Positions 17,637-35,058 of a stretch of DNA of 64,000 bases are shown piece by piece; position 1 is the stretch's first letter, and every line of letters begins with the position of its first letter. The translations under genes were made by a program, and so were the position numbers. The notes under the pieces were generated by a model. That model saw only the letters and a program-made list of their open reading frames with translations. It made no database searches and had not been told where the DNA came from. The DNA comes from Pacificibacter marinus (lineage in GTDB: Bacteria > Pseudomonadota > Alphaproteobacteria > Rhodobacterales > Rhodobacteraceae). The DNA lies in the NCBI RefSeq assembly GCF_900109555.1, contig NZ_FNZV01000002.1:186001-250000 (forward strand), given 5' to 3'.

Positions 17637-19343
17637 TTACACTTTAGCTGTCAGCCAGTCCGGCAACCCCGTTGGGGCAATGCCGTTTACGGCGACATCG
17701 GCGCAGTTCTTGAGGCTGCCAAACCGCACATCGCGGCCCGTTAGACCTTTTGCATAATGAGAGTATTTGCCGGAGTTTGTCATCAACACTTTGGCGGTCG
17801 TGGAAAAGACCGGTTCAGTGATAGAGCACCAGCAAATATCAGGGTAAATATGAACGCCTGCGTCTTCTAGCTGCGCGACGAGACCTTCTTTCGTCGCCAG
17901 AGCAAGCGTGTTTCGCCCGACAGTCACAATGGTTTTTGTCCGCGGCGTACACGTGCGCCCTTTGAGCAGCTGAGCAAGTTTACGGCACTCAGTGAGTGAC
18001 GCATGAGGGCTGCCAATTGCTATCAAATCCACATGATCATCGGCAGCATTAAAGGTGCCCCAAAGGTCAGCTAAATCTGTGATCGTGATGTCGAAATATG
18101 TGCTGTCGTCGCGCAGGGGCAGGTTGCCTTCTGGGGTGTGGCCGCGCACGTGTAACATCGGGGCTGCCGAGGTCGTGCCAAAGGCCGCACAAAGAGCTTT
18201 TAGATCATCTGGAGTGGGGGCTGCATGCTCCAGTCCGGTCAGTACAGGAATGCCATTTGGAGATTTAGCGCCTGCGAGCCAACCAAGCATTGGCCAAATA
18301 GCATCATCATAATTTTCAGGCAATTCAACGTGGACTTCACAGTGTGGGTGGCGGTTTTGTGTCAGGTAAACGCCGGTATTGGGCGCGCGGCCTGTCATGG
18401 CGATGAACAGATCGAGATAGTCAGGATGCTTTTGCGTGCGCGCCCCAAGCACCGAATTTGCATAAATGACAGCGTTGGATTCAGACCAGCCAATGGCTTC
18501 TTCTTCTGCAGGGATATCTTCGAGCAAATAAGGTGCACAGGTGAACGTGGCTTGCGCCCCCATGTTGACATAAGCATCGGCCAATCGGCTGGCTTTGGAG
18601 CCAAAAATCGGCACGACGCCTTGTGTGGTCCAGTTTTCACGATCTACGGAAATTGCGTTTATGGTTGTTGGAATGACCGTTTTCGCGCCCATTTCTTGCA
18701 TTTTTTCAGCGAAATCCAAGTTGGCATCATGGGCCAAAATACATCCATCAATATGCGCACGCGAGACATCAATCAGGCTGGTTGCCCCTTGTGCAGCGGC
18801 CATCAAGCACAGAACGTCCATTGCAATTTTTTGCGCCTCTCCGCCCTCGCCTGCCTTCATGCGCTTATCGGCATCGGTTAACTGCAAAGAGTGCGCGCCG
18901 AGGGTGTGGAGTGCGATTGAGCGGTCACCAAAGAGGAGTTCTTCACCGCGCACTTGCGCTTCATCCGCCTGAGACAGGGCGTCATAGATGGGCGCGCCAA
19001 GGCGCAGAACTGCTACTGGGCGATCAAATAGAAGGCCTGCGATCAACGCGCCAAGCGTTAGGATATCTTCTTCTTCGCGAAAAACGAGAGCGGCGGGGGC
19101 CTGACCATTGCGCGCCAACTGCAACATGACACCGCTGCCACTGCACGAACCTCTGGATGTTGGCATTAAGACAATCTTGCCAGCAAGCGATGCGCCGTGA
19201 TCGGGGTGGAGCGCGTCGATAATCTGGCCTGAATCAGGGTCCACACCGCCCCAAAAACTTAGCCCTTCTTTACAGGTCAAAACTTGGCCTCTGGCGTCAC
19301 TTTTCACGAAAAGGACTGCGGTGGGTTCAATGTTGTTAATCAT
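17637..19343 (-). CDS. acnX: Aconitase X (AcnX), likely cis-3-hydroxy-L-proline dehydratase
   Basis: This 568-residue protein fuses the two AcnX parts. The N-terminal DUF126 swivel domain (residues about 1-130) has PTSRGSCSGSGVML near 50. The DUF521 catalytic domain contains TNSGKYSHYAKGLTG and ends GSLKNCADVAVNG. Single-chain bacterial AcnX enzymes have been characterised as iron-sulfur cis-3-hydroxy-L-proline dehydratases, giving pyrroline-2-carboxylate. I chose ATG 19343 (MINNIEPTAVLF) over a TTG 11 codons upstream because it has GAAAGA at proper spacing and begins the conserved fold. It diverges from an amino-acid ABC operon and shares with it a GntR-type box at 19498. The reductase for its product is encoded at 24409. 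Substrate is inferred from family and context. Confidence 0.83.
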   Translation of the reverse strand: MINNIEPTAVLFVKSDARGQVLTCKEGLSFWGGVDPDSGQIIDALHPDHGASLAGKIVLMPTSRGSCSGSGVMLQLARNGQAPAALVFREEEDILTLGALIAGLLFDRPVAVLRLGAPIYDALSQADEAQVRGEELLFGDRSIALHTLGAHSLQLTDADKRMKAGEGGEAQKIAMDVLCLMAAAQGATSLIDVSRAHIDGCILAHDANLDFAEKMQEMGAKTVIPTTINAISVDRENWTTQGVVPIFGSKASRLADAYVNMGAQATFTCAPYLLEDIPAEEEAIGWSESNAVIYANSVLGARTQKHPDYLDLFIAMTGRAPNTGVYLTQNRHPHCEVHVELPENYDDAIWPMLGWLAGAKSPNGIPVLTGLEHAAPTPDDLKALCAAFGTTSAAPMLHVRGHTPEGNLPLRDDSTYFDITITDLADLWGTFNAADDHVDLIAIGSPHASLTECRKLAQLLKGRTCTPRTKTIVTVGRNTLALATKEGLVAQLEDAGVHIYPDICWCSITEPVFSTTAKVLMTNSGKYSHYAKGLTGRDVRFGSLKNCADVAVNGIAPTGLPDWLTAKV

Positions 19344-19497
19344 CTGTGGTCTTTCAGGCTGAATGGAAGAGGTCAATAATTAGGCATTAGGGCCATTACT
19401 GCCATGTAAGCTTGCTTAGAAATGGCGACTTTATGTCGTTTAAAGAAGCGCTTTTGCATGTCGCGGGAAGTTCTGGTTGATTTTTAGGCTGTGCGTC

Positions 19498-19514
19498 ATG
19501 TATCCTGTATCCAA
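19498..19514. promoter_or_regulatory. Putative GntR operator, site A
   Basis: The 17-mer ATGTATCCTGTATCCAA lies between the divergent aconitase X and ABC binding-protein genes. Its reverse complement begins TTGGATACAG, the same ten bases found at 24274 and, on the reverse strand, at 31812-31821. It is an imperfect palindrome and fits a dimeric GntR/FCD regulator. The GntR gene of the cluster is the natural candidate. Confidence 0.6.
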
Positions 19515-19562
19515 TTAAGAAACAAAAAACAAGAAACAGAATCACCTCAACAGGGAATTGAC

Positions 19563-20375
19563 ATGAAAAAAACTATCCTTATCGCTCTTTCTGCAGCGGC
19601 CCTCTTTACCTCATCTATGGTCACGACAGCATCAGCGGATACGCTTGATGACGTGGTTGATCGCGGCGTTTTGCGCTGTGGCGTCGTTTTGGACTTTCCA
19701 CCAATCGGTTACCGCGATGCTAACAACGAACCAGCAGGCTTTGACGTAGAGTATTGCGCCGATTTGGCTGCTGCTCTTGAAGTTGAACATGAAATTTTGC
19801 CACTGACATGGTCCGAGCGTCTTCCTGTGATCGTCACTGGTCGGGCTGATGTTGTGTTCGGTGGCACCTCTGACAGCTTGGCGCGTGCGCGGACTGTTGG
19901 TTTTTCAATCCCTTACGCGATCTACTATGCGCAAGGTGTTGTTGGTGTAGACACTGGCATCGAAACATTTGAAGACATGCGCGGCAAACGCGTTGCTGCA
20001 GCTGTTGGCACTGTGCCTGAGCAAGAGTGGCTCAAGATTGCTGCTGAATGGGGCGAAGAAGACAACTACCAAGGCTACCAGTCTGAGAACGAAGTGTTCT
20101 TGGCCGTGGCGCAAGGTAAAGCTGATATCGGTATCACCACCAACACAACCGTTCTGCCAATCACGCAGCAATACGACAACATCGTCGCTGGCCCACGTAT
20201 GCCATGGACAACTGATTATACTTCTGTTGTTGGCAAACGCGAAGATGTGACATGGTTGAACTACCTCAACTTGTTTGTGACGCATCAAGTTCGCTCAGGT
20301 CGCTACCAAGAGCTTTGGGGCACATATGTTGGCGGCGACGCTCCTGAACTGCGTATTCCCGGCGTAATGTACTAA
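19563..20375 (+). CDS. Amino-acid ABC transporter substrate-binding protein (family 3)
   Basis: This periplasmic protein of 270 residues has a signal peptide at residues 1-25 (MKKTILIALSAAALFTSSMV, ending TASA). The SBP_bac_3 fold shows in LDDVVDRGVLRCGV, PAGFDVEYCADLAAAL, the TGRADVVFGGTSDSLARA strand and MRGKRVAAAVGTVPEQ. ATG 19563 is preceded by AGGGAATTGAC and starts the signal. Family 3 proteins bind polar amino acids. The genes around it (aconitase X, proline-racemase-like, pyrroline-carboxylate reductase-like) point to a hydroxyproline or proline derivative as ligand. A hairpin separates it from the permease genes, a usual device for making more binding protein than permease. Confidence 0.9.
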   Translation: MKKTILIALSAAALFTSSMVTTASADTLDDVVDRGVLRCGVVLDFPPIGYRDANNEPAGFDVEYCADLAAALEVEHEILPLTWSERLPVIVTGRADVVFGGTSDSLARARTVGFSIPYAIYYAQGVVGVDTGIETFEDMRGKRVAAAVGTVPEQEWLKIAAEWGEEDNYQGYQSENEVFLAVAQGKADIGITTNTTVLPITQQYDNIVAGPRMPWTTDYTSVVGKREDVTWLNYLNLFVTHQVRSGRYQELWGTYVGGDAPELRIPGVMY

Positions 20376-20383
20376 ATCAACCT

Positions 20384-20410
20384 CCCAGCCCACGACGAAT
20401 GTGGGCTGGG
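20384..20410 (+). terminator. Intercistronic attenuating hairpin
   Basis: A perfect 10-bp stem CCCAGCCCAC/GTGGGCTGGG with loop GACGAAT lies nine bases after the binding-protein stop and 25 before the permease start. It is followed by CGTTTT only, so it probably attenuates or protects the upstream message rather than ending transcription. Confidence 0.6.
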
Positions 20411-20434
20411 CGTTTTACCAGATGGGCTACATGT

Positions 20435-21097
20435 ATGTTCGACTACAATTTCCATTGGCGACCCGTCATGAAAAACCTGCCGGACTTACTTGAAGCCGGT
20501 TTGACAACTCTTCAGATCGCCGTGTTGTCGATGGTCATTGGGATCGTCATAGGGTTGGCATTGGCTTTGATACGCATGCACATGCGCGGCCCTGCCAAGT
20601 GGTTTGCATCAACTTGGGTCGAATTGGCCCGCAACACGCCCGCCTTGTTCCAGCTCTTTTTCTTTGGCTTTGGCTTGGGCGCAATTGGGGTGCATTTGAC
20701 CCCATATACGATCGTTCTTGCGGCCCTTAGCTTTAACTGTGCTGGGTATCTCGCTGAGAATTTTCGCGGTGGGTTTCAGGCCATACCGGATACGCAGCTT
20801 CGCGCGGCGCGGTCCTTGGGCATGACCGGGTGGCAAGCCTATTCGCGCATTATCATCCCTCAAGTGTTTCGGATCGTGTATCATCCGCTGACCAACCAAA
20901 TGGTTTGGGCTGTGTTGATGTCATCGCTTGGAATGCTGGTCGGTTTTCGTGAACTGTCTGGTGAAACACAGGCGCTTGCCAGCCGCACTTACCGCATCTT
21001 TGAATACTTCGCGGTCACCGCGGTCATTTATTATGCCATCGTAAAATTCATACTGGGGGCCTCGCGTTTGCTGGCCGCCCGTCTGTTCAAGTACTAA
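20435..21097 (+). CDS. Amino-acid ABC transporter permease 1
   Basis: This inner-membrane HisM/HisQ-type permease of 220 residues has about five spans. It has the landmarks LEAGLTTLQIAVLSMVIGIV at the N-terminus, VELARNTPALFQLFFFGFG near 65 and the EAA loop AARSLGMTGWQAYSRIIIPQ near 130, which contacts the ATPase. ATG 20435 (MFDYNFHWRP) starts the family-typical N-terminus; an upstream in-frame GTG adds only residues from the hairpin region. It forms a heterodimer with the permease encoded directly downstream. Confidence 0.9.
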   Translation: MFDYNFHWRPVMKNLPDLLEAGLTTLQIAVLSMVIGIVIGLALALIRMHMRGPAKWFASTWVELARNTPALFQLFFFGFGLGAIGVHLTPYTIVLAALSFNCAGYLAENFRGGFQAIPDTQLRAARSLGMTGWQAYSRIIIPQVFRIVYHPLTNQMVWAVLMSSLGMLVGFRELSGETQALASRTYRIFEYFAVTAVIYYAIVKFILGASRLLAARLFKY

Positions 21098-21107
21098 GGG
21101 TAGACAC

Positions 21108-21770
21108 ATGGAACCGACGATAAGTTTCTTTTCTGGCCTGCAAATCAGCGATCTTTGGTACCTGATGGAAGCAGCATGGCGCACAGTGTTGATCTCAGCT
21201 TTGTCCATTACAATTGGGACCGTACTTGGGGTCGTTTTTGGTTGGATCTTGTATGAAGGCCGTTGGGCCGCAGCGCTTACACTCGGTCCCTTGTTGGATG
21301 TGTTTCGCTCTGTTCCGCTGATCATCCAACTTGTGCTATTTTATAACTTTGCGCCGATCATCGGATTGAACCTTGATCCGTTCTTTTCGGGTGTTGTCAT
21401 CTTGGGCATTTATTGCGCGTCGCTCGTTGCGAATGTGGCCCGTGGCGGCATGGAAGCTGTGAGCCGCCCCATGCGCCGTGCCGCACGATCTTTGGGCATG
21501 AGCTATTGGCAAGACCTGCGCTATATTGTGCTGCCCATCGGGGGGCGTGCGGTTTTCCCGTCATGGGTGGGCGTGGCATTGGGTGTGATGAAAGACAGCG
21601 CTTTGGTGTCTGTCCTCGGCTACATTGAGCTTTTGAAAGCAAGTCAGATTTTGATCACACGCACACAAGAACCGTTATTGATCCTGACAATCGCTGGCGC
21701 ATTCTACTTTGCGTTATCTTATCCAATTTCGCGCTACGCCGCGAGCATCGAGAAACGGTGGACCTCATGA
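21108..21770 (+). CDS. Amino-acid ABC transporter permease 2
   Basis: This is the second HisM/HisQ-type permease, 220 residues. It has LMEAAWRTVLISALSITIGT near the N-terminus, DVFRSVPLIIQLVLFYNFAP near 65 and the EAA loop AARSLGMSYWQDLRYIVLPI near 125. It starts ten bases after permease 1 and its stop overlaps the ATPase start (ATGA), so the four transport genes are one operon. Substrate specificity lies mainly with the binding protein. Confidence 0.9.
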   Translation: MEPTISFFSGLQISDLWYLMEAAWRTVLISALSITIGTVLGVVFGWILYEGRWAAALTLGPLLDVFRSVPLIIQLVLFYNFAPIIGLNLDPFFSGVVILGIYCASLVANVARGGMEAVSRPMRRAARSLGMSYWQDLRYIVLPIGGRAVFPSWVGVALGVMKDSALVSVLGYIELLKASQILITRTQEPLLILTIAGAFYFALSYPISRYAASIEKRWTS

Positions 21771-22489
21771 TTGAAATACGCGGATTAGAGAAGTACTTTG
21801 GAACTCTGCAAGTACTTAAAGGCATCGACCTGACTGTACCAAAGGGCGAAGTATTGTCCATCATTGGAGCGTCAGGGTCTGGCAAATCCACGTTGTTGTA
21901 TTGTATCAATGCCCTTGAAGAAATTCAGGCTGGTTCGGTCAAAGTTGACGGAACAGACGTTCATGCCAAAGGCACAGACATCAACGCATTGCGGCAAAAA
22001 CTAGGGATGGTGTTTCAACAATGGAACAGCTTTCCGCATCTGACAGCGCTTGAAAACGTGGCTTTGTCCCCTAGAATTGTTAAGGGCAAAACCAAAGCTG
22101 AAGCGCGCGACATTGCGGCCAAACAGTTGGAGCATGTCGGTCTCGCAGACAAGCTGGATGTGTATCCAAGCGCACTGTCGGGTGGGCAGCAACAGCGCCT
22201 TGCCATCGCGCGCGCTTTGGCTATGGAACCTGAATATATGCTGTTTGACGAAGCCACGTCAGCGCTCGACCCTGAGCTGGTCGGTGAGGTTTTAGATACC
22301 ATGCGGCTGTTGGCAGAAGAGGGTATGACTATGATCTGCGTGACGCATGAAATGAATTTCGCGCGGGATGTGTCCGATCGGGTGGCGTTTTTCCACCAAG
22401 GTGTCATCGAAGAGATTGATAGTCCTGACAAAATTTTCGGTGCGCCGAAATCTGAGCATCTGCAAAAATTCCTGTCCAATATTAGATAA
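21767..22489 (+). CDS. Amino-acid ABC transporter ATP-binding protein
   Basis: This HisP/GlnQ-type ATPase of 240 residues has Walker A GASGSGKS near 35-42, LGMVFQQWNSFPHLTALENV around the Q-loop, signature LSGGQQQRLAIARAL near 133 and Walker B YMLFDEATSALDPELVG. The start is ATG 21767, which overlaps the TGA of permease 2; a GTG three codons upstream is a less likely alternative. It completes the importer and is followed nine bases later by the proline-racemase-like gene, placing that enzyme in the same transcript. Confidence 0.92.
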   Translation: MIEIRGLEKYFGTLQVLKGIDLTVPKGEVLSIIGASGSGKSTLLYCINALEEIQAGSVKVDGTDVHAKGTDINALRQKLGMVFQQWNSFPHLTALENVALSPRIVKGKTKAEARDIAAKQLEHVGLADKLDVYPSALSGGQQQRLAIARALAMEPEYMLFDEATSALDPELVGEVLDTMRLLAEEGMTMICVTHEMNFARDVSDRVAFFHQGVIEEIDSPDKIFGAPKSEHLQKFLSNIR

Positions 22490-22498
22490 GCCCGAGAT

Positions 22499-23530
22499 AT
22501 GCGCAGCACAAAAGTGATCCATGTGGTGTCGTGCCACGCTGAAGGCGAAGTTGGCGATGTGATTGTTGGTGGCGTCCTCCCGCCTCCAGGCGAGACCCTT
22601 TGGGATCAACGCAACTGGATTGCACAAGACGATACGCTGCGCAATTTTGTCTTGAATGAACCGCGCGGTGGCGTTTTTCGACATGTGAATCTGCTCGTGC
22701 CGCCAAAGCATCCAGATGCACAGGCTGCGTGGATTATCATGGAACCTGAAGACACGCCGCCTATGTCGGGGTCAAACTCTATTTGTGTGTCCACGGTTTT
22801 GCTCGATACGGGCATCATCCCGATGGTGGAACCCATAACAGAAATGACGCTTGAAGCTCCGGGCGGGCTTGTTCATGTGCGCGCCCATTGCGCCAATGGC
22901 AAAGCAGAACGCATCGAGGTTGAAAACCTACCTTCATTTGCGGGGCTTTTGGGCGTCCCGCTTGAGATCGAAGGTTTGGGCACAATTCTTGTGGATACGG
23001 CCTTTGGCGGTGATAGTTTTGTTGTCGTTGATCCCAGTTCTCTGGGCCTGACGCTGGACGCAGACCATGCGCAAACCCTTGCACAGCTTGGCGTTGAAAT
23101 CACCAACGCCGCGAATGAGCAATTGGTCTTTCATCACCCAACGCAACCTGACTGGCGGCATCATTCCTTTTGTCTGTTTGCGGGGGCTTTGACGCGCGAT
23201 GCGTCCGGTCTGCGGGCTCAATCGGTGGTCTCAATTCAGCCGGGCAAACTTGATCGCAGTCCAACAGGCACAGCCGTGTCAGCCCGCATGGCACTCTTGC
23301 ACGCCAAAGGTGAAATGAAGGTCGGAGATCGATTGACGGGTGTGTCGATTATCGGCTCAGAGTTTCACGGTGAAATCCTTGGGGAAACGACAGTCGGTAC
23401 AACCCCTGCCATTCGTCCGCAAATTAGTGGACGTGGCTGGGTGACAGGAACGCATCAACATATGCTCGACCCAAGCGATCCGTGGCCCGAAGGTTACCGC
23501 ATTGCAGACACTTGGCCACGTTATAAATAG
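22499..23530 (+). CDS. Proline racemase superfamily protein with Ser/Thr at the catalytic positions
   Basis: This protein of 343 residues has the proline racemase fold: [20 protein letters not shown] at the start, [20 protein letters not shown] near 159 and [18 protein letters not shown] near the end. The two catalytic positions, Cys/Cys in racemases and epimerases and Cys/Thr in trans-3-hydroxy-L-proline dehydratases, are Ser90 ([10 protein letters not shown]) and Thr256 (LDRSPTGTA). Without either thiol it is unlikely to racemise; a dehydratase or another activity on a hydroxyproline isomer is more plausible. It is cotranscribed with the ABC importer and meets the GntR gene tail to tail. 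The family is certain, the reaction is not. Confidence 0.82.
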
Positions 23531-23565: not shown

Positions 23566-24246
23566 TTATACCGTTTCATCCGCGCGTTTGGCGATCATCA
23601 ATTCCAGCAGATTGTCTTTGGTGTGTGAAATATGGCGGGTCAATAAAGCACAGGCTTCATCCGTTTTCCCCGCTCGGGCAAGCGCAAGCAATTCTCGGTG
23701 CTCTTCTCGAGCTGGATCTAGTTGCTTCATAACGCTGAGGTGCATGCGCACATACCGATCCGATTGAAGGTTAATGCGCTGTAAAACATCGTTGGTCAGC
23801 CCTCTGCCGGCAGGGGCATAGAGTGCTGCGTGATATTTGAAATTCATCGCCCCCCATTTGCTGACATCGTCTGCATCATATGAGGCTTCCATCGCTTCTA
23901 GAATTTCTTCACAACGCTCGATCTGAGCGGCTGTCATTGCATGAATGGCACGGCGGAACAGATCCACCTCAATGAGAATACGAAGATCGAAAATTTCACC
24001 GATTTCGTCCAAGGAATGCTTGGTCACCATGGCGCCCTGATTATTTGTTAACTGCACCAAGCCTTCTGCATCGAGCCGTTTCAGCGCTTCACGCACAGGC
24101 ATACGCGATACATCATACTCTTTTGCCAAAGCTTCTTGGCGGATGGTAAACCCTTCTGGCAATTCACCGTTCAAAATACGTTCCCGAATATCATTTGCGA
24201 TCACATCAGGTAGGCTCTGTCGGGTTATTGCTCGTTTGCTGGACAC
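23566..24246 (-). CDS. GntR-family regulator (FadR/FCD subfamily)
   Basis: This regulator of 226 residues has an N-terminal winged helix (LPDVIANDIRERILNGELPE, then EALAKEYDVSRMPVREALKR) and a C-terminal all-helical FCD ligand domain with the metal-binding Asp/His pattern (DLFRRAIHAMTAAQ, MNFKYHAALYAPAG). Such proteins usually repress catabolic genes and release DNA on binding a carboxylate. It diverges from the pyrroline-carboxylate reductase-like gene, and a TTGGATACAG box in the shared promoter recurs at two other promoters of the hydroxyproline region. It is therefore the likely pathway regulator. The effector might be a hydroxyproline or pyrroline-carboxylate; this is inference. Confidence 0.88.
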   Translation of the reverse strand: MSSKRAITRQSLPDVIANDIRERILNGELPEGFTIRQEALAKEYDVSRMPVREALKRLDAEGLVQLTNNQGAMVTKHSLDEIGEIFDLRILIEVDLFRRAIHAMTAAQIERCEEILEAMEASYDADDVSKWGAMNFKYHAALYAPAGRGLTNDVLQRINLQSDRYVRMHLSVMKQLDPAREEHRELLALARAGKTDEACALLTRHISHTKDNLLELMIAKRADETV

Positions 24247-24273: not shown

Positions 24274-24290
24274 TTGGATACAGTTTATCG
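24274..24290. promoter_or_regulatory. Putative GntR operator, site B
   Basis: TTGGATACAGTTTATCG lies 28 bases upstream of the GntR start, in the divergent promoter with the reductase gene. The left half TTGGATACAG is identical to sites A and C on the appropriate strands; the right half is weaker. It would allow autoregulation and control of the reductase. Confidence 0.55.
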
Positions 24291-24408: not shown

Positions 24409-25425
24409 ATGAACAACACCGTCAAAATCCCTTTGAATGAAATACGTCCACTCGCGCGCGATGTGCTTGTCGGTGCCGGTTATGATGACGCCCATGCGGC
24501 CTCAATCGCTAAAATGTTGTATACATGCCAACTGGATGATTGCCAGTCGCATGGTTTGTTTCGGCTTTTTATGTGCATTCAGACAATTAAAGCGGGTAAA
24601 ATTGATGGTGCAGCTGTGCCGGACATCACGCAAGCCGGAAAAGCCATCATCAAAGCCGATGCACACGGCGGCATGTCTTTATTGGCGATGGAAGCCGCCA
24701 TTCCTCAGTTGATTGAAAAGACCCGTGAGTTTGGGATTGCTGCCATTGCGATCAATCGTTGTTTTCATTTTTCTGCTCTGTGGCCCGAGGTGGAACGCCT
24801 CTCGCAAGCGGGCTTGGCAGCGATGGCGATGGTTCCCAGCCATTCGTGGGTTGCGCCTGCTGGCGGGACACGGGGCACACTTGGCACCAATCCATTGGCT
24901 TTCAGTTGGCCGCGTAAAGACAAAACACCTTTTACTTTTGATTTTGCCACCAGCGCATTTGCACGCGGAGAAATCGAACTTTACAAACGAGCTGGCAAAC
25001 CGCTGCCAGACGGTGTGGCCGTCGATCAAGATGGCAATCCGACAAATGATCCTGATGCTGCTATGGCAGGTGCGATGTTGACTTTTGGCGGTTACAAAGG
25101 GTCCGCCTTGTCCATTATGATTGAATTGATGGCAGGGCCACTGATTGACGATATGACCAGTCTCGAAAGCATGGAGTTTGCTCAAGGGCAGGGCGGCGCG
25201 CCCTATCATGGCGAAATTATTCTCGCCTTTGATCCGGCGCAATTTTCGGGCGGGAAAGTTGCTGAAAATGACGCACGCGCCGAACGCCTGTTTGCCGACA
25301 TTATTGATCAAGGGGCGCGCTTGCCGTCACAGCGACGCTTTGCGGCACGTGCCCGCAACATTGAACGTGGGTATGTCGAAATCTCTGCTGATTTGTACGC
25401 CGATCTGCGGGCGCTATTGCCGTAA
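24409..25425 (+). CDS. Ldh2/DpkA-type reductase, likely delta1-pyrroline-2-carboxylate reductase
   Basis: This 338-residue NAD(P)H-dependent oxidoreductase belongs to the malate/L-lactate dehydrogenase-like family (LARDVLVGAGYDDAHAASIA, CQSHGLFRLFMCI, RGTLGTNPLAFSWPRKD, FGGYKGSALSIMIELMAGPL). Family members reduce cyclic imines such as pyrroline-2-carboxylate to L-proline. That is the product expected from aconitase X acting on cis-3-hydroxyproline, so this gene fits the second step of that branch. I chose ATG 24409 (MNNTVKIPLNEIRPLAR); an upstream TTG adds 16 non-conserved residues. It diverges from the GntR gene and carries site B in its promoter. A malate or lactate activity is not excluded by sequence alone. 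Confidence 0.83.
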   Translation: MNNTVKIPLNEIRPLARDVLVGAGYDDAHAASIAKMLYTCQLDDCQSHGLFRLFMCIQTIKAGKIDGAAVPDITQAGKAIIKADAHGGMSLLAMEAAIPQLIEKTREFGIAAIAINRCFHFSALWPEVERLSQAGLAAMAMVPSHSWVAPAGGTRGTLGTNPLAFSWPRKDKTPFTFDFATSAFARGEIELYKRAGKPLPDGVAVDQDGNPTNDPDAAMAGAMLTFGGYKGSALSIMIELMAGPLIDDMTSLESMEFAQGQGGAPYHGEIILAFDPAQFSGGKVAENDARAERLFADIIDQGARLPSQRRFAARARNIERGYVEISADLYADLRALLP

Positions 25426-25484: not shown

Positions 25485-26726
25485 TCAAAAACGTGTTGGC
25501 GCGTAGGGCGCGGTGGAAACAGCCGGGGTTTTACCGCAGATCAACGCAGCAACCAGCTCAGCCGTGCCAGCCGATTGGGTCAACCCTAAGTGGCCATGAC
25601 CAAAGGCGTAAATCACTTTGGATGCACGCGGCGACGCGCCAATCACGGGCAAACTATCGGGCATGGAAGGGCGGAAGCCCATCCATTGCTTGCCATCGGC
25701 GGTGTTCAGGGTGGGAAGAAATTGCGCGGCTTTTTTCAGCAAAATCTCAGCGCGTTTGAAGTTCGGTGGTAATTTTAGCCCCCCAAGTTCAACCGCGCCG
25801 CCAATACGCACCCCACCGTTGATACGCGATGCGACGAACCCATGCCCGCCAAAAGTGAGTTGAGTGCGCAGATCAAATGCGCCCGCGGGCAAGGTCGTGT
25901 TGTATCCCCGCTCGGTTTCCAGTGGGATACGATCGCCAAGTGTGCGCGCCAGATGATGCGACCATGCACCTGCCGCGACGACGACCTGAGACGCTTTTAA
26001 GGGTCCGTTTGGTGTCATCAACTCAAAACCATCACCGCTTTGCTCAAGCGCCAAAACCTCGACGCGCTCAATCTCGCCGCCTCGGGTTTTGAAAGCTTGG
26101 GCCAAATGTTCGGCCCAACTGCGTGGATCAATCGTGTTCATCCAGTCAGGAGTGAAAGCTGCGTGCGTGAAACGGGGATCAAGGCCGGGTTGAATTTCGG
26201 CAATCTCTTCTGGGCTTTTCAAGTGTTCGAATGCTATGCCAAATGCGCGCCGCACCTCCCAAGACTTAAGGCTCGCGCGGAACTCCTGTTCGCCTTCATA
26301 GAGTTGCATCTGACCATCGCGCTGCATCAATGGCTCGCCATCCACATTTTTGATCTGGCGCTCTAGCGCAGTGCTCGAAAAGCCATTGAGGGTTGACTGT
26401 GCTGCAAGTGCGGCTTGGTATCGGTCCCGCCAACTTGCGCGCCAAAAGCGTAACATCCAAGGTGCTATTTTCACCGCATAAGCTGGTGGGACTGACAGTG
26501 GGCCAAGCGGATCTAGCAACCACTTGGGCGCTTTCAGCATAATACCTGGCGTGGCCAGCGGGACAATATCGGCAAATGCAAAAGCCCCAGCGCTGCCTGC
26601 CGAAGCTTCGTTGGCAACGCCAGAACGATCAAGCACACGGACTTTAAAGCCTTGGGTCTGTAGCTCCAATGCAATGCTGATACCGACAATGCCAGCGCCA
26701 ACGATTGTGACGTGATTTTGTTCCAT
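25485..26726 (-). CDS. FAD-dependent D-amino-acid dehydrogenase-like oxidoreductase (DadA family)
   Basis: This 413-residue flavoprotein has an N-terminal FAD-binding Rossmann motif (TIVGAGIVGISIALELQTQG) and the DAO fold (VVVAAGAWSHHLARTLGD near 255, ERGYNTTLP near 285, GFRPSMPDSLPVIGASPR near 340 and YAFGHGHLGLTQSAGTAELV near the end). In trans-4-hydroxyproline catabolism a DadA-like enzyme oxidises cis-4-hydroxy-D-proline to pyrroline-4-hydroxy-2-carboxylate, which fits the 4-hydroxyproline epimerase and deaminase genes upstream. Its ATG 26726 overlaps the stop of the TRAP large-subunit gene by one base, so it is the last gene of that operon. Electron acceptor unknown; probably membrane quinone. 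Confidence 0.85.
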   Translation of the reverse strand: MEQNHVTIVGAGIVGISIALELQTQGFKVRVLDRSGVANEASAGSAGAFAFADIVPLATPGIMLKAPKWLLDPLGPLSVPPAYAVKIAPWMLRFWRASWRDRYQAALAAQSTLNGFSSTALERQIKNVDGEPLMQRDGQMQLYEGEQEFRASLKSWEVRRAFGIAFEHLKSPEEIAEIQPGLDPRFTHAAFTPDWMNTIDPRSWAEHLAQAFKTRGGEIERVEVLALEQSGDGFELMTPNGPLKASQVVVAAGAWSHHLARTLGDRIPLETERGYNTTLPAGAFDLRTQLTFGGHGFVASRINGGVRIGGAVELGGLKLPPNFKRAEILLKKAAQFLPTLNTADGKQWMGFRPSMPDSLPVIGASPRASKVIYAFGHGHLGLTQSAGTAELVAALICGKTPAVSTAPYAPTRF

Positions 26727-28036
26727 TAGAGCCCCACAAGCACGGATGGCAGCCATGTGACGACTGCAGGGAACAAAATGATCACGACAAGCACCAACAT
26801 TTGCGCTCCGACGAAAGGCAACACACCGCGGTACATTTGGCCGTAAGTCATGCTTTTGGGGGCAATAGATCGCAGATAAAAGATCGATGGGGCCATAGGC
26901 GGTGTCAAATACGAGGTTTGGATCACGACCAAAACCATCATAGCAAACCAGATGGGATCAATACCCGCGCTTTTAACAATAGGCGCAAAGATCGGGATAA
27001 AGATCAAAACAATGGACACCCAATCCAGCACAAATCCGGCAAAGAAAACCACGGTCAAGAAAAAGGCGATGATGCCGACATTGCCGTATCCTATGGTTTC
27101 CACGGTGTCGCGCACCAAATTTCCGCCGCCTGTGACAGCAAAGATGCTTGTGAACATGGTGCCGCCCGCGATGATCAGCATGATCATGGAGGTGATGCGC
27201 AATGTGACACCGAGTGAATCCATGATTAATTTTAGGTTCAATTCACGAAACATCAACGTCAGCAACACAGTGCCCGCCGCGCCAACCGCAGCAGCTTCGG
27301 TCGCTGATGCGATGCCCGCCAACAATGAGCCAAGCACCATGACGATCAACGCCAACGGGGGTAGCATGGCGGTCATCGAAATTTTGATTTTTTCAGCAAC
27401 GGGTGTCGTGCGTTCAGCCAAAGGCAAAGGCGGCGCATCGTTTGGGTGCATGATGCTGCGCACCAAAATATACCCAACAAAGAACACAACCATAAGCAAT
27501 CCGGGTAAGATGGACGCCGCAAAAAGTTGACCGGTTGAGAGCTGTGCGATCGAGGCATAGACAACAACGATGACAGAGGGCGGAATGATGGTGCCCAATG
27601 ATCCACCTGCACAAATCGTGCCGGCAATCAGATCATTTTTGTATCCAGCTTTCATCATTGGCGGAATGGCCATCATGCCAACGACGATTTCAACAGCGCC
27701 AACAACACCGGATGCAGCCGCGAAAATGGCGCACATCGCGATTGTGGACAGGGCCAAACCACCGGGCAGCCCCCCGAGCCAAAGTTGCAGGGCGTAGAAC
27801 AGACGCTTGGCGATGCCTGAGCGTTCCAGCACCGCGCCCATGAAAATGAACAGCGGGATCGCTGCGAGCACAAAGTTTGACGCGGTGCTCAGCAACGGCC
27901 CATAGAGTTGTAAGAAAATCAGATCACCGAACACTGTGTAGCCAAAGGCAATCGCAATGATCATGAGGGAAAAGGCGACAGGCACGCCAATGAAAACCAG
28001 CACGAACAAGGTCGCGAACATAAGTAGAGGAATCAT
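26726..28036 (-). CDS. TRAP transporter large membrane subunit, DctM family
   Basis: This 436-residue permease with about twelve membrane spans carries DctM landmarks (AAASGVVGAVEIVVGMMAIP, GGSLGTIIPPSVIVVVYASI, DWVSIVLIFIPIFAPIVKSA, QTSYLTPPMAPSIFYLRSI). It is the second TRAP system in the window and lies inside the hydroxyproline operon. It is therefore likely to import trans-4-hydroxy-L-proline or a related osmolyte with sodium. It sits three bases downstream of the DctQ gene and overlaps the DadA-like gene. Confidence 0.92.
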   Translation of the reverse strand: MIPLLMFATLFVLVFIGVPVAFSLMIIAIAFGYTVFGDLIFLQLYGPLLSTASNFVLAAIPLFIFMGAVLERSGIAKRLFYALQLWLGGLPGGLALSTIAMCAIFAAASGVVGAVEIVVGMMAIPPMMKAGYKNDLIAGTICAGGSLGTIIPPSVIVVVYASIAQLSTGQLFAASILPGLLMVVFFVGYILVRSIMHPNDAPPLPLAERTTPVAEKIKISMTAMLPPLALIVMVLGSLLAGIASATEAAAVGAAGTVLLTLMFRELNLKLIMDSLGVTLRITSMIMLIIAGGTMFTSIFAVTGGGNLVRDTVETIGYGNVGIIAFFLTVVFFAGFVLDWVSIVLIFIPIFAPIVKSAGIDPIWFAMMVLVVIQTSYLTPPMAPSIFYLRSIAPKSMTYGQMYRGVLPFVGAQMLVLVVIILFPAVVTWLPSVLVGL

Positions 28037-28039
28037 GGA

Positions 28040-28573
28040 CTAGGTCTCCAAATCTTGAAGTTCGGTGTTGGTTTCGCCGGGGGTTTTCGTGCCAGACAAA
28101 TAGTTGATCGCCTCAACGATGAATTGTAGGGAAAACGCGAATAGCCCGAGTGCGATGATCGAATAGAATGGCCAAACATGCGGTGCCCATGGGCTGACGC
28201 TTTCCAATTCGCCTGTCTTGAACGCTTTGAATGCTTTGTTTGCAGCCACGTTTGTAAAGGCAAAGCCGATGGGCGCCATAACGAGCAGATACACCAAGCC
28301 GTTCAGAATTTGTTGAACGCGGCGTGGAAATTTTTGCGACAAGAAATCAATGCGAACATGTGCATCTTCTTGCAAAGAATACGCAGCCCCAAGCAAGAAA
28401 ATGGACCCGTTCAACATATAAGAAATGTCAAACGCCCAAAGGGTTGGGGCCCCAAAGGCATAACGTGCCACCACTTCATATAGCATTGCCGCGATCAGGC
28501 AAAAGATGGCCAAGCGGCCGAAAAAACCCAAAATTGCTGAAAACTGTTCACAGATGTTGCGTAGGAAAATCAT
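28040..28573 (-). CDS. TRAP transporter small membrane subunit, DctQ family
   Basis: This protein of 177 residues has four hydrophobic segments and the DctQ pattern (RLAIFCLIAAMLYEVVARYA, then DISYMLNGSIFLLGAAYSL). I chose ATG 28573 (MIFLRNICEQF) because GGAGG lies at ideal spacing before it; two in-frame ATGs upstream would place this ribosome-binding site inside the coding sequence. The gene sits three bases before the large-subunit gene and 57 bases after the binding-protein gene. Confidence 0.88.
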   Translation of the reverse strand: MIFLRNICEQFSAILGFFGRLAIFCLIAAMLYEVVARYAFGAPTLWAFDISYMLNGSIFLLGAAYSLQEDAHVRIDFLSQKFPRRVQQILNGLVYLLVMAPIGFAFTNVAANKAFKAFKTGELESVSPWAPHVWPFYSIIALGLFAFSLQFIVEAINYLSGTKTPGETNTELQDLET

Positions 28574-28630
28574 TGCGGCCTCCATAAAAGATGGCCGACA
28601 CACGCGGCCGACCATCTCAGATAGTTTGAG

Positions 28631-29695
28631 TTATTCAGCGGAATCGCGAACCAGATAGCCCGAGTTTTCAGCCCAATTTGTTTGGTATGCGAGGTAGCTG
28701 TCGAGAACGCCTTGCATGCGCGCATTGCCAGCGTCAGATTGCTCTGTGGCTTTCTTTTGTGCCCAGTTGCGGCCAGCTTGGCGAATTTTTTCAGACTCTT
28801 CTGGCAGCATTGTGACCAGTTCGACTTTTGTCTTGCGGAACTCAGCCATTGCTTTCACATCAGCATCGCCAAAACGTGTGAAACCCTCATACGTTGTGAG
28901 TTTGGCTGCGGCTGTGATCAACTCTTGAAGATCTGCTGGAAGCGCATCCCACGTTTCGTTTTTGACAAACACTTCCCACAAGAATGATGGCTGATGAACG
29001 CCAGGCATAATCATATAAGGCGCCACTTCGTGGAAGCCTTCAGTGATGTTCGCACCTGGAGTGGACCACTCAATTGCATCAACACCTTTGCGTTGCAAAA
29101 GAGAGTAGATTTCAGTGCCTGGAACCACGGTTGGAACGCCACCGAATTCCTCTTGCAGAACAGCCGCAAACGCGCCGGATGTGCGGAATTTCAAGCCTTT
29201 GAGGTCTTCGACTGTTTCGATTTTAACATTCGAGTGCGCCATGATTTCTGAGGTGCCGATGCCAACAACAAGGCTGTGCAGCCCCATGTCTTCGCTGCGG
29301 AAATCTTGCAACATTTTTTCGCCGCCGCCTTCATAGATCCAGTGCAGTGTTGCTTCTGGTGACATGCCGCCGGGGAAGCTGGCGAAAATGGCGTTGGTCG
29401 CATCTTGGTTCACCAAGTACGACGGTGTGGAGTGGCCAACTTCGATCACGCCATCTTGCACGACTTCGTAGGCTTTGAACGCAGGGGCCAAAACGCCAGC
29501 GCCAAAGGACTGGATATCGACACGGCCAGCTGTGATTGAGGAGACGTTCTTAACAAACCGTTCCATGAAATTCTGGTAGATGAATGACCCTTCGCCGACA
29601 CCGGCAGTCATTTTCCAATCGACTTCAGCCGCGTGGGCTGGACTAAATGTGGTGGCTGCAAGCGCAGTTGCGGCGAGTATATTGAATATTTTCAT
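28631..29695 (-). CDS. TRAP transporter substrate-binding protein, DctP family
   Basis: This periplasmic protein of 354 residues has a signal peptide (MKIFNILAATALAATTFSPA, cleaved near AHA). The DctP fold includes TAGRVDIQSFGAGVLAPAF, MAHSNVKIETVEDLKGLKFR near 145-165 with the ligand-binding arginine, and GVDAIEWSTPGANITEGF near 205. It has the longer C-terminus common in TRAP proteins for amino acids and keto acids. ATG 29695 starts the signal; an upstream extension has none. With the two membrane subunits it likely supplies hydroxyproline to the enzymes encoded on either side. Confidence 0.9.
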   Translation of the reverse strand: MKIFNILAATALAATTFSPAHAAEVDWKMTAGVGEGSFIYQNFMERFVKNVSSITAGRVDIQSFGAGVLAPAFKAYEVVQDGVIEVGHSTPSYLVNQDATNAIFASFPGGMSPEATLHWIYEGGGEKMLQDFRSEDMGLHSLVVGIGTSEIMAHSNVKIETVEDLKGLKFRTSGAFAAVLQEEFGGVPTVVPGTEIYSLLQRKGVDAIEWSTPGANITEGFHEVAPYMIMPGVHQPSFLWEVFVKNETWDALPADLQELITAAAKLTTYEGFTRFGDADVKAMAEFRKTKVELVTMLPEESEKIRQAGRNWAQKKATEQSDAGNARMQGVLDSYLAYQTNWAENSGYLVRDSAE

Positions 29696-29761
29696 TGGGT
29701 CCTCTGGACTGTTGGGGGTGTGTGGCATGCTCTTGAGTGAACTTGCCGTTTTATGGCTCGA

Positions 29762-30718
29762 TTAAGTCGAACTCTGGTTTTTAGACGTTGCTTTGATGCC
29801 GTTTTTGAACGGATCGTTTGCATGAAACAGCAAGGTGCTTTCGGCCATGACAAAGGCCTGTCCTGTGATTTTTGGAATGACCCCGCCGTTCGGGCCCGGT
29901 TGATACGAAATTCGATAAGGGCTGCCGATCACGCTTTTCTGGACGATGTCTTGACCAGCCTCTAGCAAGCCATCAGCCGCTAGACAGGCCAATCGTGCTG
30001 AACTGGCCGTTCCGCAGGGTGATCTGTCATAGGCATCATCGGGGCACAGCACAAAGTTGCGGCTGTGAATGCCGTCTTCGGGCGATGGTTCTTGGAACAC
30101 CACATGGTCAACAGGTTGCCCCGCATCACCGCCAATGCCTTGGGCAATTGTTGCCAAGCGAATGGCAATCGCAGCATCGGTGAGCGCACGAATATTATCG
30201 ACCTCAATCGCAATCGGGCTTGGGTCAATGATGTAGAACCAGTTCCCACCGTACGCCACATCACCTGTAATCGTGCCCAGCCCGTCAACCTCGACTTGGG
30301 CAGCGCGGTGCGTGCGGCGGCTTTCGACATTTGTGATCGTCGCAGTATTCATATCGGTGAGGCAAATTTCGATAACACCAACAGGGGTTTCAATCTTGTG
30401 GGTGCCAATATCGATCCGACCAAGATGTGCCAGCGTGACAGCCAAACCAATGGTGCCATGACCGCACATTCCAAGCACGGCTTCAGAATCGAAATAGATG
30501 ACGCCTGTGACGCAGCTTGGATCAACGGGTTCGACCAAAAGCGCCCCGACCATCGCGGTTTGCCCGCGTGGTTCTAAGATAACAGAATGGTAGAACTGTT
30601 TGTGCTGCGTCGCCAAGAGTTGCGCGCGCTTGGACAGTGGTCCCGACCCTAAATCAGGACCACCGTCAAGGATCACACGGGTGGGTTCCCCGCCTGTGTG
30701 ACTGTCGATTACATGCAT
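29762..30718 (-). CDS. 4-hydroxyproline 2-epimerase (proline racemase superfamily)
   Basis: This 318-residue enzyme has both catalytic cysteines of the proline racemase family: Cys85 in LGMCGHGTIG and Cys235 in DRSPCGTASS. It has the typical start MHVIDSHTGGEPTRVIL and GDVAYGGNWFYIID near 152. Cys/Cys members next to DadA-like and DHDPS-like genes are 4-hydroxyproline epimerases. They convert trans-4-hydroxy-L-proline to cis-4-hydroxy-D-proline in the cytoplasm. The ATG lies ten bases inside the end of the deaminase gene, so translation is coupled. A plain proline racemase is the main alternative; the neighbours argue against it. Confidence 0.87.
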   Translation of the reverse strand: MHVIDSHTGGEPTRVILDGGPDLGSGPLSKRAQLLATQHKQFYHSVILEPRGQTAMVGALLVEPVDPSCVTGVIYFDSEAVLGMCGHGTIGLAVTLAHLGRIDIGTHKIETPVGVIEICLTDMNTATITNVESRRTHRAAQVEVDGLGTITGDVAYGGNWFYIIDPSPIAIEVDNIRALTDAAIAIRLATIAQGIGGDAGQPVDHVVFQEPSPEDGIHSRNFVLCPDDAYDRSPCGTASSARLACLAADGLLEAGQDIVQKSVIGSPYRISYQPGPNGGVIPKITGQAFVMAESTLLFHANDPFKNGIKATSKNQSST

Positions 30719-31665
30719 TCAGCAATGACTCCGCCAAGTTTGGACCAGTCCGCGAACCATGTGCGGAACAACGTGTATTGTTGTTCGCAATAGTTGCGCT
30801 GCGCATCAGTCAAAACATCAGTTTCATTGAAGTGCAGGCGGTATTCTTCGTCGCCGTTCAAAACAAGCAAGTGCTTGTAATAAAGAACCAAATCTGTGCC
30901 TTCATCAAAGCTGGACAGAACACCAATGGCTTCTTCCAATTCCAAAGCGCGTTTGCGGGCTTCGGCGTGACCAGTCGCTGCTTTTTGCGACAACGACGCA
31001 AGCAAGAGGGCTTCTTTTGGCAATGCAGTTCCAATACCTGTGATCGAACCTGTTGCGCCACAGTTGACGAAACCGTGGAACACTTCGGTGTCAACGCCGA
31101 CCATCAATGTGACTTGGTCGTCTTGCGATGTGATGTGTTCAGCGGCGTAGCGCAGATCGTCTTTGCCGCCAAATTCTTTGAACCCAACCAAGTTTGAATG
31201 CTCTGCACGCAGAGCAAAAAACAAATCAGCCCGTGTGGAGAACCCGTAAACTGGGCTGTTGTAAATGACTGCAGCCACATCTGGCGCTGCGTTCAAGATC
31301 GATTTGAAGTGGTTCTTTTGCGCAATAGCTGATGAACCACGGGACAAAACACGCGGGATAACCATCAAGCCTGCCGCACCAACTTTTTGTGCATGAGCCG
31401 CAAGTGCCGTCGCAGATTTCGTGTTGATCGCGCCTGTGCCAACGACAACTGGGACGCCAGCTTTTACAAGCTTTTCGACACCTTCCATGCGCTGTTCATC
31501 GGACAGCAAAGGCCAATCGCCCATTGAACCACAGTAAACAACGGCGGACATACCTGCCGCGATCATTTCTTTGCCCTTTTTGACGAGCAGGTCAAAATCT
31601 GGTGTTCGATCGTCTTTGCACGGAGTCATAAGTGCTGGCATTGTGCCTGCAAAAATATTGGACAT
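30709..31665 (-). CDS. DHDPS-family lyase, likely pyrroline-4-hydroxy-2-carboxylate deaminase
   Basis: This protein of 318 residues is a dihydrodipicolinate synthase-type TIM barrel with Schiff-base Lys163 (NLVGFKEFGG), Tyr135 and Tyr140 (AVIYNSPVYGF) and the N-terminal YCGSMGDWPLL substrate loop. In hydroxyproline catabolism such an enzyme deaminates pyrroline-4-hydroxy-2-carboxylate to 2-oxoglutarate semialdehyde. It leads the operon that continues with the 4-hydroxyproline epimerase, TRAP genes and DadA-like oxidoreductase. I chose ATG 31665 (MSNIFAGTMPALMTP) with AAGGAA upstream; a longer frame to 31821 lacks family likeness and runs into the operator. The semialdehyde dehydrogenase needed next is not in this window. 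Confidence 0.83.
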   Translation of the reverse strand: MSNIFAGTMPALMTPCKDDRTPDFDLLVKKGKEMIAAGMSAVVYCGSMGDWPLLSDEQRMEGVEKLVKAGVPVVVGTGAINTKSATALAAHAQKVGAAGLMVIPRVLSRGSSAIAQKNHFKSILNAAPDVAAVIYNSPVYGFSTRADLFFALRAEHSNLVGFKEFGGKDDLRYAAEHITSQDDQVTLMVGVDTEVFHGFVNCGATGSITGIGTALPKEALLLASLSQKAATGHAEARKRALELEEAIGVLSSFDEGTDLVLYYKHLLVLNGDEEYRLHFNETDVLTDAQRNYCEQQYTLFRTWFADWSKLGGVIAECM

Positions 31666-31804
31666 AGTCGTTTTCCTTATTTGCGAGAGGCCCAAATGGA
31701 CCTTCGGCCTATCGATGCTCGCAGTTGTTGAACCGTGGAGCTGTGTTTTGAGGGCAGTTTTCTGGTCCTTACGCGTTCCATAATACTGCTTTAATCGACG
31801 TATA

Positions 31805-31821
31805 TTGGATTCTGTATCCAA
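31805..31821. promoter_or_regulatory. Putative GntR operator, site C
   Basis: TTGGATTCTGTATCCAA is a nearly perfect 17-bp palindrome with TTGGAT/ATCCAA arms, 140 bases upstream of the first gene of the 4-hydroxyproline operon. On the reverse strand it reads TTGGATACAGAATCCAA and shares ten bases exactly with sites A and B. It is the best copy of the proposed regulon box. Confidence 0.65.
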
Positions 31822-35051: not shown

Positions 35052-35058
35052 ATTTTTC

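Follow-up and report, generated by a model that had tools for sequence, protein, structure and literature searches.

A likely L-hydroxyproline catabolic regulon combining three predicted entry routes, one GntR regulator, a broad ABC importer and an added TRAP importer

The window analysed here is a 64-kb stretch of DNA (G000:C32:186001-250000) from the 3.87-Mb genome of an alphaproteobacterium that is probably marine, and the system in question is a cluster of 14 genes, taken from the list of open reading frames (ORFs), that occupies window positions 17637-31821 and is predicted to serve uptake and catabolism of hydroxyproline (Hyp). From the left the order is acnX (minus strand), four genes of an ATP-binding cassette (ABC) importer (plus), a Ser/Thr-type homologue of proline racemase (plus), gntR (minus) and ldh2 (plus). 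The 4-Hyp side is a minus-strand operon transcribed in the order deaminase, epimerase, dctP, dctQ, dctM and oxidase, the dct genes encoding a tripartite ATP-independent periplasmic (TRAP) importer. The genes and predicted operators are the following.

17637-19343, minus strand: AcnX, predicted cis-3-hydroxy-L-proline dehydratase (ORF open to 19376; NF051439, 860 bits, cut-off 700)
19498-19514, no strand: predicted GntR operator at the acnX/ABC promoter, ATGTATCCTGTATCCAA (2 mismatches, second-best in the window)
19563-20375, plus strand: ABC solute-binding protein (270 amino acids from the likely ATG; ORF open from 19491; SBP_bac_3)
20399-21097, plus strand: ABC permease 1 (BPD_transp_1; 53-54% identical to hydroxyproline-cluster permeases)
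21108-21770, plus strand: ABC permease 2 (BPD_transp_1; 48-53% to hydroxyproline-cluster permeases)
21758-22489, plus strand: ABC ATPase (ABC_tran; 69-72% to hydroxyproline-cluster ATPases)
22499-23530, plus strand: Ser/Thr proline-racemase homologue, predicted trans-3-hydroxy-L-proline dehydratase (NF047722, 627 bits, cut-off 550)
23566-24246, minus strand: GntR/FCD protein, predicted regulator of the cluster (GntR and FCD; 84% to the R. pomeroyi 4-Hyp operon regulator)
24274-24283, minus strand: predicted operator half-site between gntR and ldh2, CTGTATCCAA (exact 10-mer)
24409-25425, plus strand: putative Ldh2-type Delta1-pyrroline-2-carboxylate reductase (338 amino acids from the likely ATG; Ldh_2)
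25485-26756, minus strand: DadA-like flavin adenine dinucleotide (FAD) oxidoreductase, predicted cis-4-hydroxy-D-proline dehydrogenase (DAO; 75% to the R. pomeroyi hydroxyproline-operon oxidase)
26726-28036, minus strand: TRAP large membrane subunit DctM (DctM; 89% to the R. pomeroyi 4-Hyp operon)
28040-28615, minus strand: TRAP small membrane subunit DctQ (DctQ; 77% to R. pomeroyi)
28631-29695, minus strand: TRAP binding protein DctP (354 amino acids from the likely ATG; ORF open to 29728; DctP; 83% to R. pomeroyi)
29762-30718, minus strand: putative 4-hydroxyproline 2-epimerase of the Cys/Cys type (NF052296, 568 bits, cut-off 450; motifs MCGHG and DRSPCGT)
30709-31665, minus strand: predicted DHDPS-like Delta1-pyrroline-4-hydroxy-2-carboxylate (Pyr4H2C) deaminase (DHDPS; phmmer matches to 2hmc, 4mpq and 5czj)
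31805-31821, no strand: predicted GntR operator of the 4-Hyp operon, TTGGATTCTGTATCCAA (0 mismatches, best in 64 kb)

The families of all 14 genes lie above curated cut-offs in Pfam, with matches to AcnX and AcnX_swivel, SBP_bac_3, BPD_transp_1 (twice), ABC_tran, Pro_racemase (twice), GntR with FCD, Ldh_2, DAO, DctM, DctQ, DctP and DHDPS, and three of the enzymes (AcnX, the Ser/Thr protein and the epimerase) also pass equivalog models of NCBIfam. Each gene that the initial annotation had named within these 14 kb was recovered as an ORF and as a Pfam match. Its ORFs are right and several of its gene starts are probably too early, the choice among in-frame ATGs giving likelier starts at 31665 for the deaminase, 19563 for the ABC binding protein and 24409 for Ldh2. 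Once the deaminase start is moved to 31665, the right edge it had given for the cluster, 31821, becomes the end of a predicted operator and not the start of a gene.

AcnX carries both Pfam domains, AcnX and AcnX_swivel, within one 579-amino-acid ORF and matches 7cnp with a phmmer E of 1e-189. Sixteen AtAcnX residues that belong to the cluster or the substrate site, or that entered mutant design (PMC8184944, accessible part), were mapped onto it with a numbering offset of +7, picked by fit among +6, +7 and +8; the alignment to 7cnp is ungapped, so a single offset serves for all. Fifteen of the 16 are identical and Thr72 is replaced by Ser. Judged by its sequence, AcnX should dehydrate cis-3-hydroxy-L-proline. 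The second enzyme of the 3-Hyp half had been described only as a proline-racemase-like protein, which is correct as to family and missed the type: it has Ser90, Asn93 and Thr256, the residues of the characterised trans-3-hydroxy-L-proline dehydratase (B9K4G4/4K7G), which points to a dehydratase, and the Ser/Thr catalytic pair rules out an ordinary Cys/Cys epimerase. The name trans-3-hydroxy-L-proline dehydratase is likely rather than proven, and the assignment is uncertain because members of the Ser/Thr cluster of the superfamily differ in function, 4-hydroxyproline epimerases, 3-hydroxyproline epimerases and trans-3-hydroxyproline dehydratases occurring side by side (PMC4113996, as far as its accessible text goes). 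Such heterogeneity, the epimerisation of 3-Hyp by one member and the listing of the nearest solved relative, 4K8L, among 4-hydroxyproline epimerase deposits would agree with a 3- or 4-hydroxyproline 2-epimerase in place of a dehydratase. This alternative is quite improbable given that the protein passes the dehydratase equivalog cut-off of NCBIfam, matches the characterised dehydratase at the three residues, and shares the cluster with a separate Cys/Cys epimerase and a probable Delta1-pyrroline-2-carboxylate reductase. The latter, Ldh2, has delta1-piperideine-2-carboxylate reductase 1wtj as its closest solved structure (218 bits) and is 49-53% identical to the Ldh genes of three hydroxyproline clusters; in the accessible part of PMC4113996, MLD2 members adjoining such genes reduce the proline ketimine. 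Elsewhere in the genome there is a single proline dehydrogenase domain, within a 1176-amino-acid open frame of PutA size.

On the 4-Hyp side, the epimerase is 76% identical to its R. pomeroyi counterpart. The deaminase was assigned to the DHDPS subgroup of hydroxyproline clusters by a large score gap to ordinary DHDPS, with phmmer E values of 1e-157 to 1e-162 for 2hmc, 4mpq and 5czj and only 5e-19 for other DHDPS chains. It is 73-88% identical to the DHDPS genes of hydroxyproline clusters and carries a GFKEFG motif, whose lysine we take to be the Schiff-base lysine; 5czj is presumably S. meliloti HypD.

With the GntR of the S. meliloti cluster, taken as HypR from its position there, the regulator shares only 30% identity, and this value rules it out as a HypR orthologue. 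The two best matches of the whole window to the palindrome TTGGATNCNGNATCCAA lie at 31805 (0 mismatches) and 19498 (2), and an equivalent site precedes the R. pomeroyi operon. The core CTGTATCCAA is found exactly three times in the window (19505, 24274 and 31812), one copy per promoter region, and has 10 exact copies genome-wide vs 6 for the reversed control. General FadR-type patterns had no match in the promoters of the cluster. The operator was then surveyed in 82 related loci (L003, L018 and L023-L102; L numbers denote the loci compared), of which L003 and L018 supplied the references. TGGATN5ATCCA occurs exactly 44 times there vs at most 5 times for each of 29 permuted half-sites, a count that speaks for conservation more than for independent origin, the relatives sharing descent and the counts not being independent. 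Thirty-four of the 44 sites are close to the start of a hydroxyproline gene (25 before the ABC genes, 8 before an aldehyde dehydrogenase and 1 before the deaminase), and exact sites so placed are present in 20 of 24 loci whose GntR shares 70% identity or more with the reference set (L003 and L018 included) vs 6 of 58 loci with a GntR below 50% or none seen in the examined stretch. The difference between the target promoters is a stronger point for the operator than the counts. The exact 15-mer taken alone is unspecific, with nine places in its own genome, one of them in the cluster. When TGGATNCNGNATCCA was scanned for more loosely, at 2 mismatches, the 25 loci whose GntR is orthologous yielded 103 hits, the controls averaging 14.9 with one palindrome reaching 78, and many of the hits fall in coding sequence, for example in a conserved stretch where the ABC ATPase gene ends; because of these high control and coding hits the stricter counts were relied on. 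A single GntR probably controls both branches, because there are operator matches at both promoters and the core before gntR/ldh2.

The initial annotation had stated that no 2-oxoglutarate semialdehyde dehydrogenase lies in the window, and indeed the two aldehyde dehydrogenase types of hydroxyproline clusters gave zero matches there at E<=0.001. It had also advised looking in the rest of the genome, which holds one close homologue: the aldehyde dehydrogenase of the R. pomeroyi hydroxyproline operon has a 72% match at C32:319620-321122, about 102 kb to the right, the remaining best full-length matches being at about 30%. This enzyme is 65-75% identical to those of hydroxyproline clusters and can plausibly carry out the semialdehyde oxidation. 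Its gene is preceded by ORFs resembling xylulokinase and xylose isomerase (read from translations). No operator was found upstream, the best match having 5 mismatches, and membership of this remote gene in the same regulon is unsupported. A loss of the dehydrogenase from the cluster, leaving the 4-Hyp branch incomplete here, would accord with that distant, operator-free setting and with the relatives whose cluster still includes the gene, preceded by an operator match with no more than 1 mismatch (R. pomeroyi L003, L018, L024, L030, L032-L037 and others). Incompleteness is nonetheless unlikely: the identity to hydroxyproline-cluster enzymes makes the same reaction likely whatever pathway expresses the gene, and the remaining genes of the branch keep open frames.

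The ABC binding protein is 42-45% identical to those of the Loktanella, S. meliloti and Alloyangia hydroxyproline clusters, and closer relatives occur in the 80 loci described below. Comparison with HypMNPQ of S. meliloti, an importer of hydroxyproline (PMC5343134, accessible part), gave 43-44% for the binding protein and 71% for the ATPase, and the 42-45% identity to three cluster proteins speaks against its being HypM itself. Neither importer type is new in itself, because the accessible part of PMC5343134 already predicts that HypR regulons include hydroxyproline importers of both the ABC (HypMNPQ) and the TRAP type (HypABC). A search for hydroxyproline literature on the R. pomeroyi TRAP, Roseobacter uptake binding proteins and Rhodobacteraceae epimerases found none, subscription journals being mostly outside its scope.

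The neighbourhoods of the importers were compared in 80 loci, the best 80 of 127 confirmed matches in a scan of genome contigs with the ABC binding protein, so that the ABC importer is present by construction. Neighbours were classed by best BLAST match to reference proteins at fixed identity thresholds, only importers of the window type being classed, and 53 of the 80 loci are well flanked, their flanks extending 8 kb or more in each direction. Genes of both branches, 3-Hyp and 4-Hyp, stand in 42 of these 53 (37 without and 5 with the TRAP importer); the others comprise 4 with 3-Hyp genes only, among them L092 with an alternative DHDPS homologue, 1 with 4-Hyp genes only and 6 with neither. 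The TRAP genes lie between epimerase and oxidase in 9/9 of the TRAP-bearing loci among the 80. Among the 48 loci that have a single epimerase and a single oxidase, the gap between both measures 2.35-3.06 kb and holds TRAP in 9, measures 1.24-1.45 kb and holds another aldehyde dehydrogenase in 7 (from translations, one of them scanned), and is replaced in 32 by a distance within about 120 bases or an overlap. Loktanella (L004) and Qingshengfaniella (L019) have both importers, with TRAP at other positions of the cluster, and Pseudorhodobacter turbinis has DctP about 256 kb from its ABC, AcnX and dehydratase matches. Two side observations belong here. The second aldehyde dehydrogenase type occupies the slot elsewhere used by TRAP in L056, L057, L061, L065, L080, L083 and L087, and that of L083 scores 517 bits with the 2-oxoglutarate semialdehyde dehydrogenase model NF042993, under its cut-off of 770. 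In Ruegeria sp. TM1040 (L022, 8709-11707) a TRAP importer stands directly before the 4-Hyp genes and has no match to the DctP of the window (E<=1e-60), perhaps an independent recruitment.

At the genome level, the deaminase was searched at E<=1e-60 in 18 genomes, 17 with neither deaminase nor epimerase at the ABC locus plus L061 as positive control, leaving out the other truncated loci that show no 4-Hyp genes, L023, L028, L063, L066, L069, L074, L078 and L102. It was found in 0/17 and in the control. Either the trans-3 dehydratase or a relative with 43% identity or more is present in 12/18 (11/17), L091 having a 67% homologue elsewhere in its genome, and the alternative DHDPS homologue in 6/17 (L054, L064, L073, L086, L092 and L097), which may still have a 4-Hyp route through it. 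In ten genomes (L029, L031, L084, L088, L090, L093-L096 and L099) the ABC importer has AcnX or LhpJ as a neighbour, whether or not the dehydratase is there too, and no deaminase was found at that limit; eight of them are titled metagenome-assembled genomes and L094 is an uncultured-bacterium assembly, absence being weak evidence there. In a sample of 198 genomes of the family, one per genus and our own included (limits 1e-90 for the ABC binding protein and DctP, 1e-110 for deaminase and dehydratase), the ABC binding protein was found in 7, the deaminase in 27, the dehydratase in 56 and DctP in 4. The ABC genomes have the dehydratase in 7/7 and the deaminase in 5/7. With our own excluded, the dehydratase is present in 6/6 ABC genomes vs 49/191 others (Fisher p 0.0004) and the deaminase in 4/6 vs 22/191 (Fisher p 0.003). 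Three of the four DctP genomes have both enzymes.

From this co-occurrence the ABC importer most likely carries at least 3-hydroxyproline and, in most loci, probably 4-hydroxyproline as well, and the TRAP importer is a rarer, optional cassette of the 4-Hyp operon that most likely adds 4-hydroxyproline uptake. The initial annotation had given each branch its own uptake system. As regards TRAP, this agrees with the 9/9 loci and with R. pomeroyi; an ABC importer reserved for 3-Hyp is unlikely because 37/53 loci pair it with both enzyme sets in the absence of a window-type TRAP, and there it must serve 4-Hyp unless another importer does. A strict division, with ABC taking up only 3-hydroxyprolines and TRAP only 4-hydroxyproline, would fit the ten genomes with 3-Hyp genes and no detected deaminase, the 7/7 and 5/7 of the family sample, the position of TRAP between epimerase and oxidase, and the R. 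pomeroyi 4-Hyp operon, which has TRAP and no such ABC, AcnX or dehydratase in 29 kb. Besides the 37 loci, however, the 4-Hyp genes follow the ABC genes directly in L018, an order repeated in many of the 80 loci, and the related HypMNPQ imports hydroxyproline (PMC5343134, accessible part), which together make a strict division improbable.

The TRAP importer could also carry a related compound, such as cis-4-hydroxy-D-proline, hydroxyproline betaine or a 2-oxo acid, and not trans-4-hydroxy-L-proline. The best solved relative of DctP, 5cm6 (E 2e-37), has no ligand in its name; those named for a ligand, all remote (E 1e-21 to 1e-28), include ketoacid-, lactate- and sorbitol/mannitol-binding proteins, one DctP relative stands away from hydroxyproline genes in Sulfitobacter faviae, and users of hydroxyproline betaine are tied to the same 4-Hyp pathway in the accessible text of PMC4113996. 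Since no demethylase family occurs among the 14 genes and the TRAP genes lie within the 4-Hyp operon together with the epimerase that trans-4-hydroxy-L-proline requires, such a substrate is a minority possibility, and uptake of 4-hydroxyproline is preferred.

Single steps of the pathway may be exchangeable among the 80 loci. AcnX is present in 22 and LhpJ in 39, never together (Fisher 1e-8), in agreement with the accessible part of PMC5144071, and a fused iron-sulfur serine-dehydratase-like protein is present in 6 (L054, L064, L073, L086, L092 and L101), none of which has AcnX or LhpJ; its gene lies downstream of the trans-3 dehydratase in L101 and L092. Likewise, the classic deaminase occurs in 53 and a 26%-identical DHDPS homologue in 8 (L054, L064, L073, L086, L089, L092, L097 and L101), never both. 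The homologue follows the window-type ABC genes in Kiloniella and others, and takes the deaminase position with epimerase and oxidase in L089, L101 and Pannonibacter (L114). In four of the eight loci the serine-dehydratase-like protein accompanies it and further hydroxyproline enzymes are lacking, and these four could have another substrate instead; L115 has a DHDPS homologue (49% identity) with TRAP and no hydroxyproline genes. A plasmid search with the serine-dehydratase-like protein returned only 31-34% relatives, serine ammonia-lyase where annotated, and so no independent support for its role. In Kiloniella litopenaei (L054, 14285-15924) this gene is split into two overlapping ORFs, by a frameshift or a sequencing error. 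It is tentatively proposed, as a doubtful generalisation, that the cluster is slot-based in Alpha- and Gammaproteobacteria, many of which are marine, unrelated enzymes swapping steps around one ABC importer, with the serine-dehydratase-like protein in the cis-3 slot, the DHDPS homologue in the deaminase slot and TRAP as a 4-Hyp plug-in.

From gene content, family membership, active-site residues, a shared operator sequence and neighbourhood counts, all directly observed, we infer substrates, regulation and importer specificity, and consider it very likely that the cluster is an L-hydroxyproline catabolic regulon with three entry routes, one GntR, a broad ABC importer and an added 4-Hyp TRAP importer. 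In this regulon AcnX would dehydrate cis-3-hydroxy-L-proline and the Ser/Thr protein trans-3-hydroxy-L-proline, both to Delta1-pyrroline-2-carboxylate, which Ldh2 would reduce to L-proline for the PutA-sized enzyme encoded elsewhere. In the third route the epimerase would turn trans-4-hydroxy-L-proline into the cis-4-D form, the DadA-like enzyme would oxidise it and the deaminase would yield 2-oxoglutarate semialdehyde, to be finished by an aldehyde dehydrogenase encoded outside the window. The GntR encoded between the two halves would control all promoters through the TTGGATNCNGNATCCAA operator, the ABC importer would take up both 3- and 4-hydroxyproline, and the TRAP cassette would add uptake of the latter. 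The initial annotation had likewise proposed one locus for 3- and 4-hydroxyproline, with AcnX and a pyrroline-2-carboxylate reductase leading to proline and epimerase, oxidase and deaminase leading to the semialdehyde. Gene content and families bear out both of its branches; the probable third route, dehydration of trans-3-hydroxy-L-proline, had been overlooked.

Several observations weigh against this reading. The gntR/ldh2 promoter has a half-site only, with 5 mismatches to the full palindrome, and when one mismatch is allowed the survey gives 23/24 vs 26/58 loci, the best control having 126 hits vs 130 observed. Six of the 53 well-flanked ABC loci have neither enzyme set at the thresholds used, five of them with another DHDPS homologue; two of the six other ABC genes of the family sample contain an in-frame stop. 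In the fourth DctP genome of that sample, whose DctP is a 47% relative, deaminase and dehydratase are both missing at the limits used, and the 57% DctP relative of Sulfitobacter faviae has no hydroxyproline genes in the surrounding 29 kb. This strain may lack a finished 4-Hyp branch, the dehydrogenase candidate lying beside xylose-like genes and having no operator. The functional mixture of the Ser/Thr cluster, the shared descent behind the operator counts and the make-up of the ten genomes with 3-Hyp genes alone, all mentioned above, belong on the same side.

Collagen and the wall proteins of plants or algae are sources of hydroxyproline. The locus illustrates how three isomers of this amino acid may be used by a single bacterium, and it offers two binding proteins and a predicted operator that are open to direct testing. 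If the ABC importer is indeed broad and TRAP specific for 4-Hyp, the importer type would let annotators deduce hydroxyproline use, and the related loci supply candidates for an unrecognised cis-3-hydroxyproline dehydratase. As to the flanks, an XdhC-like protein and a MobA-like nucleotidyltransferase lie to the left (15871-17402) and probably serve molybdenum-enzyme maturation. To the right (32316-36558) a LysR regulator is divergent from a tripartite tricarboxylate importer (TctC, a TctB-sized ORF and TctA), and neither ORFs nor Pfam matches revealed a tie between these genes and hydroxyproline.

With catabolic genes clustered beside importer and regulator genes, the locus belongs to the known kind of L-hydroxyproline gene cluster. 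The Lhp cluster of P. aeruginosa, S. meliloti, A. tumefaciens and L. aggregata, as presented in the accessible part of PMC5144071, likewise groups AcnX, trans-3 dehydratase and Delta1-pyrroline-2-carboxylate reductase with epimerase, oxidase, deaminase, importer and regulator genes; gene combinations vary between species, LhpJ replacing LhpI in L. aggregata. The window differs from that description in its two importers, ABC and TRAP, its outlying aldehyde dehydrogenase and its split into 3-Hyp and 4-Hyp halves. The nearest named relative found, a Pacificibacter marinus contig (L023), matches the window in gene order and strand from acnX through the oxidase with 87-95% protein identity; its 10.3 kb stop close to the oxidase, which leaves TRAP, epimerase and deaminase out of view. 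In the megaplasmid operon of Ruegeria pomeroyi DSS-3 (NC_006569, L003), deaminase, epimerase, DctP, DctQ, DctM, oxidase and GntR are co-linear with those of the window (75-89%) and the operator likewise precedes the deaminase, whereas the 29 kb compared contain neither AcnX nor trans-3 dehydratase, amino-acid ABC or Ldh2, and an aldehyde dehydrogenase follows GntR; in the window Ldh2 separates oxidase from GntR, and the 3-Hyp half is on the far side of GntR. The Ruegeria sp. THAF33 plasmid (L018) shares the window-type ABC (binding protein 87%), the 4-Hyp genes, the Ser/Thr protein, GntR and the operator, but has the enolase-type cis-3 dehydratase LhpJ for AcnX, no such TRAP, and the aldehyde dehydrogenase within the cluster. 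Pseudohalocynthiibacter (L024) shows the window arrangement without TRAP and with the aldehyde dehydrogenase between trans-3 dehydratase and GntR. The Loktanella salsilacus plasmid (L004) also combines ABC and TRAP with both branches; it differs in running on a single strand except for Ldh, in placing TRAP before ABC, and in having another epimerase type (33%) and another GntR (29%), and its importer genes, the ATPase excepted, are 45-58% identical to those of the window. To this known kind the analysis adds the trans-3 route missed earlier, an operator common to both branches, the counts for the importers and the position of the candidate dehydrogenase.

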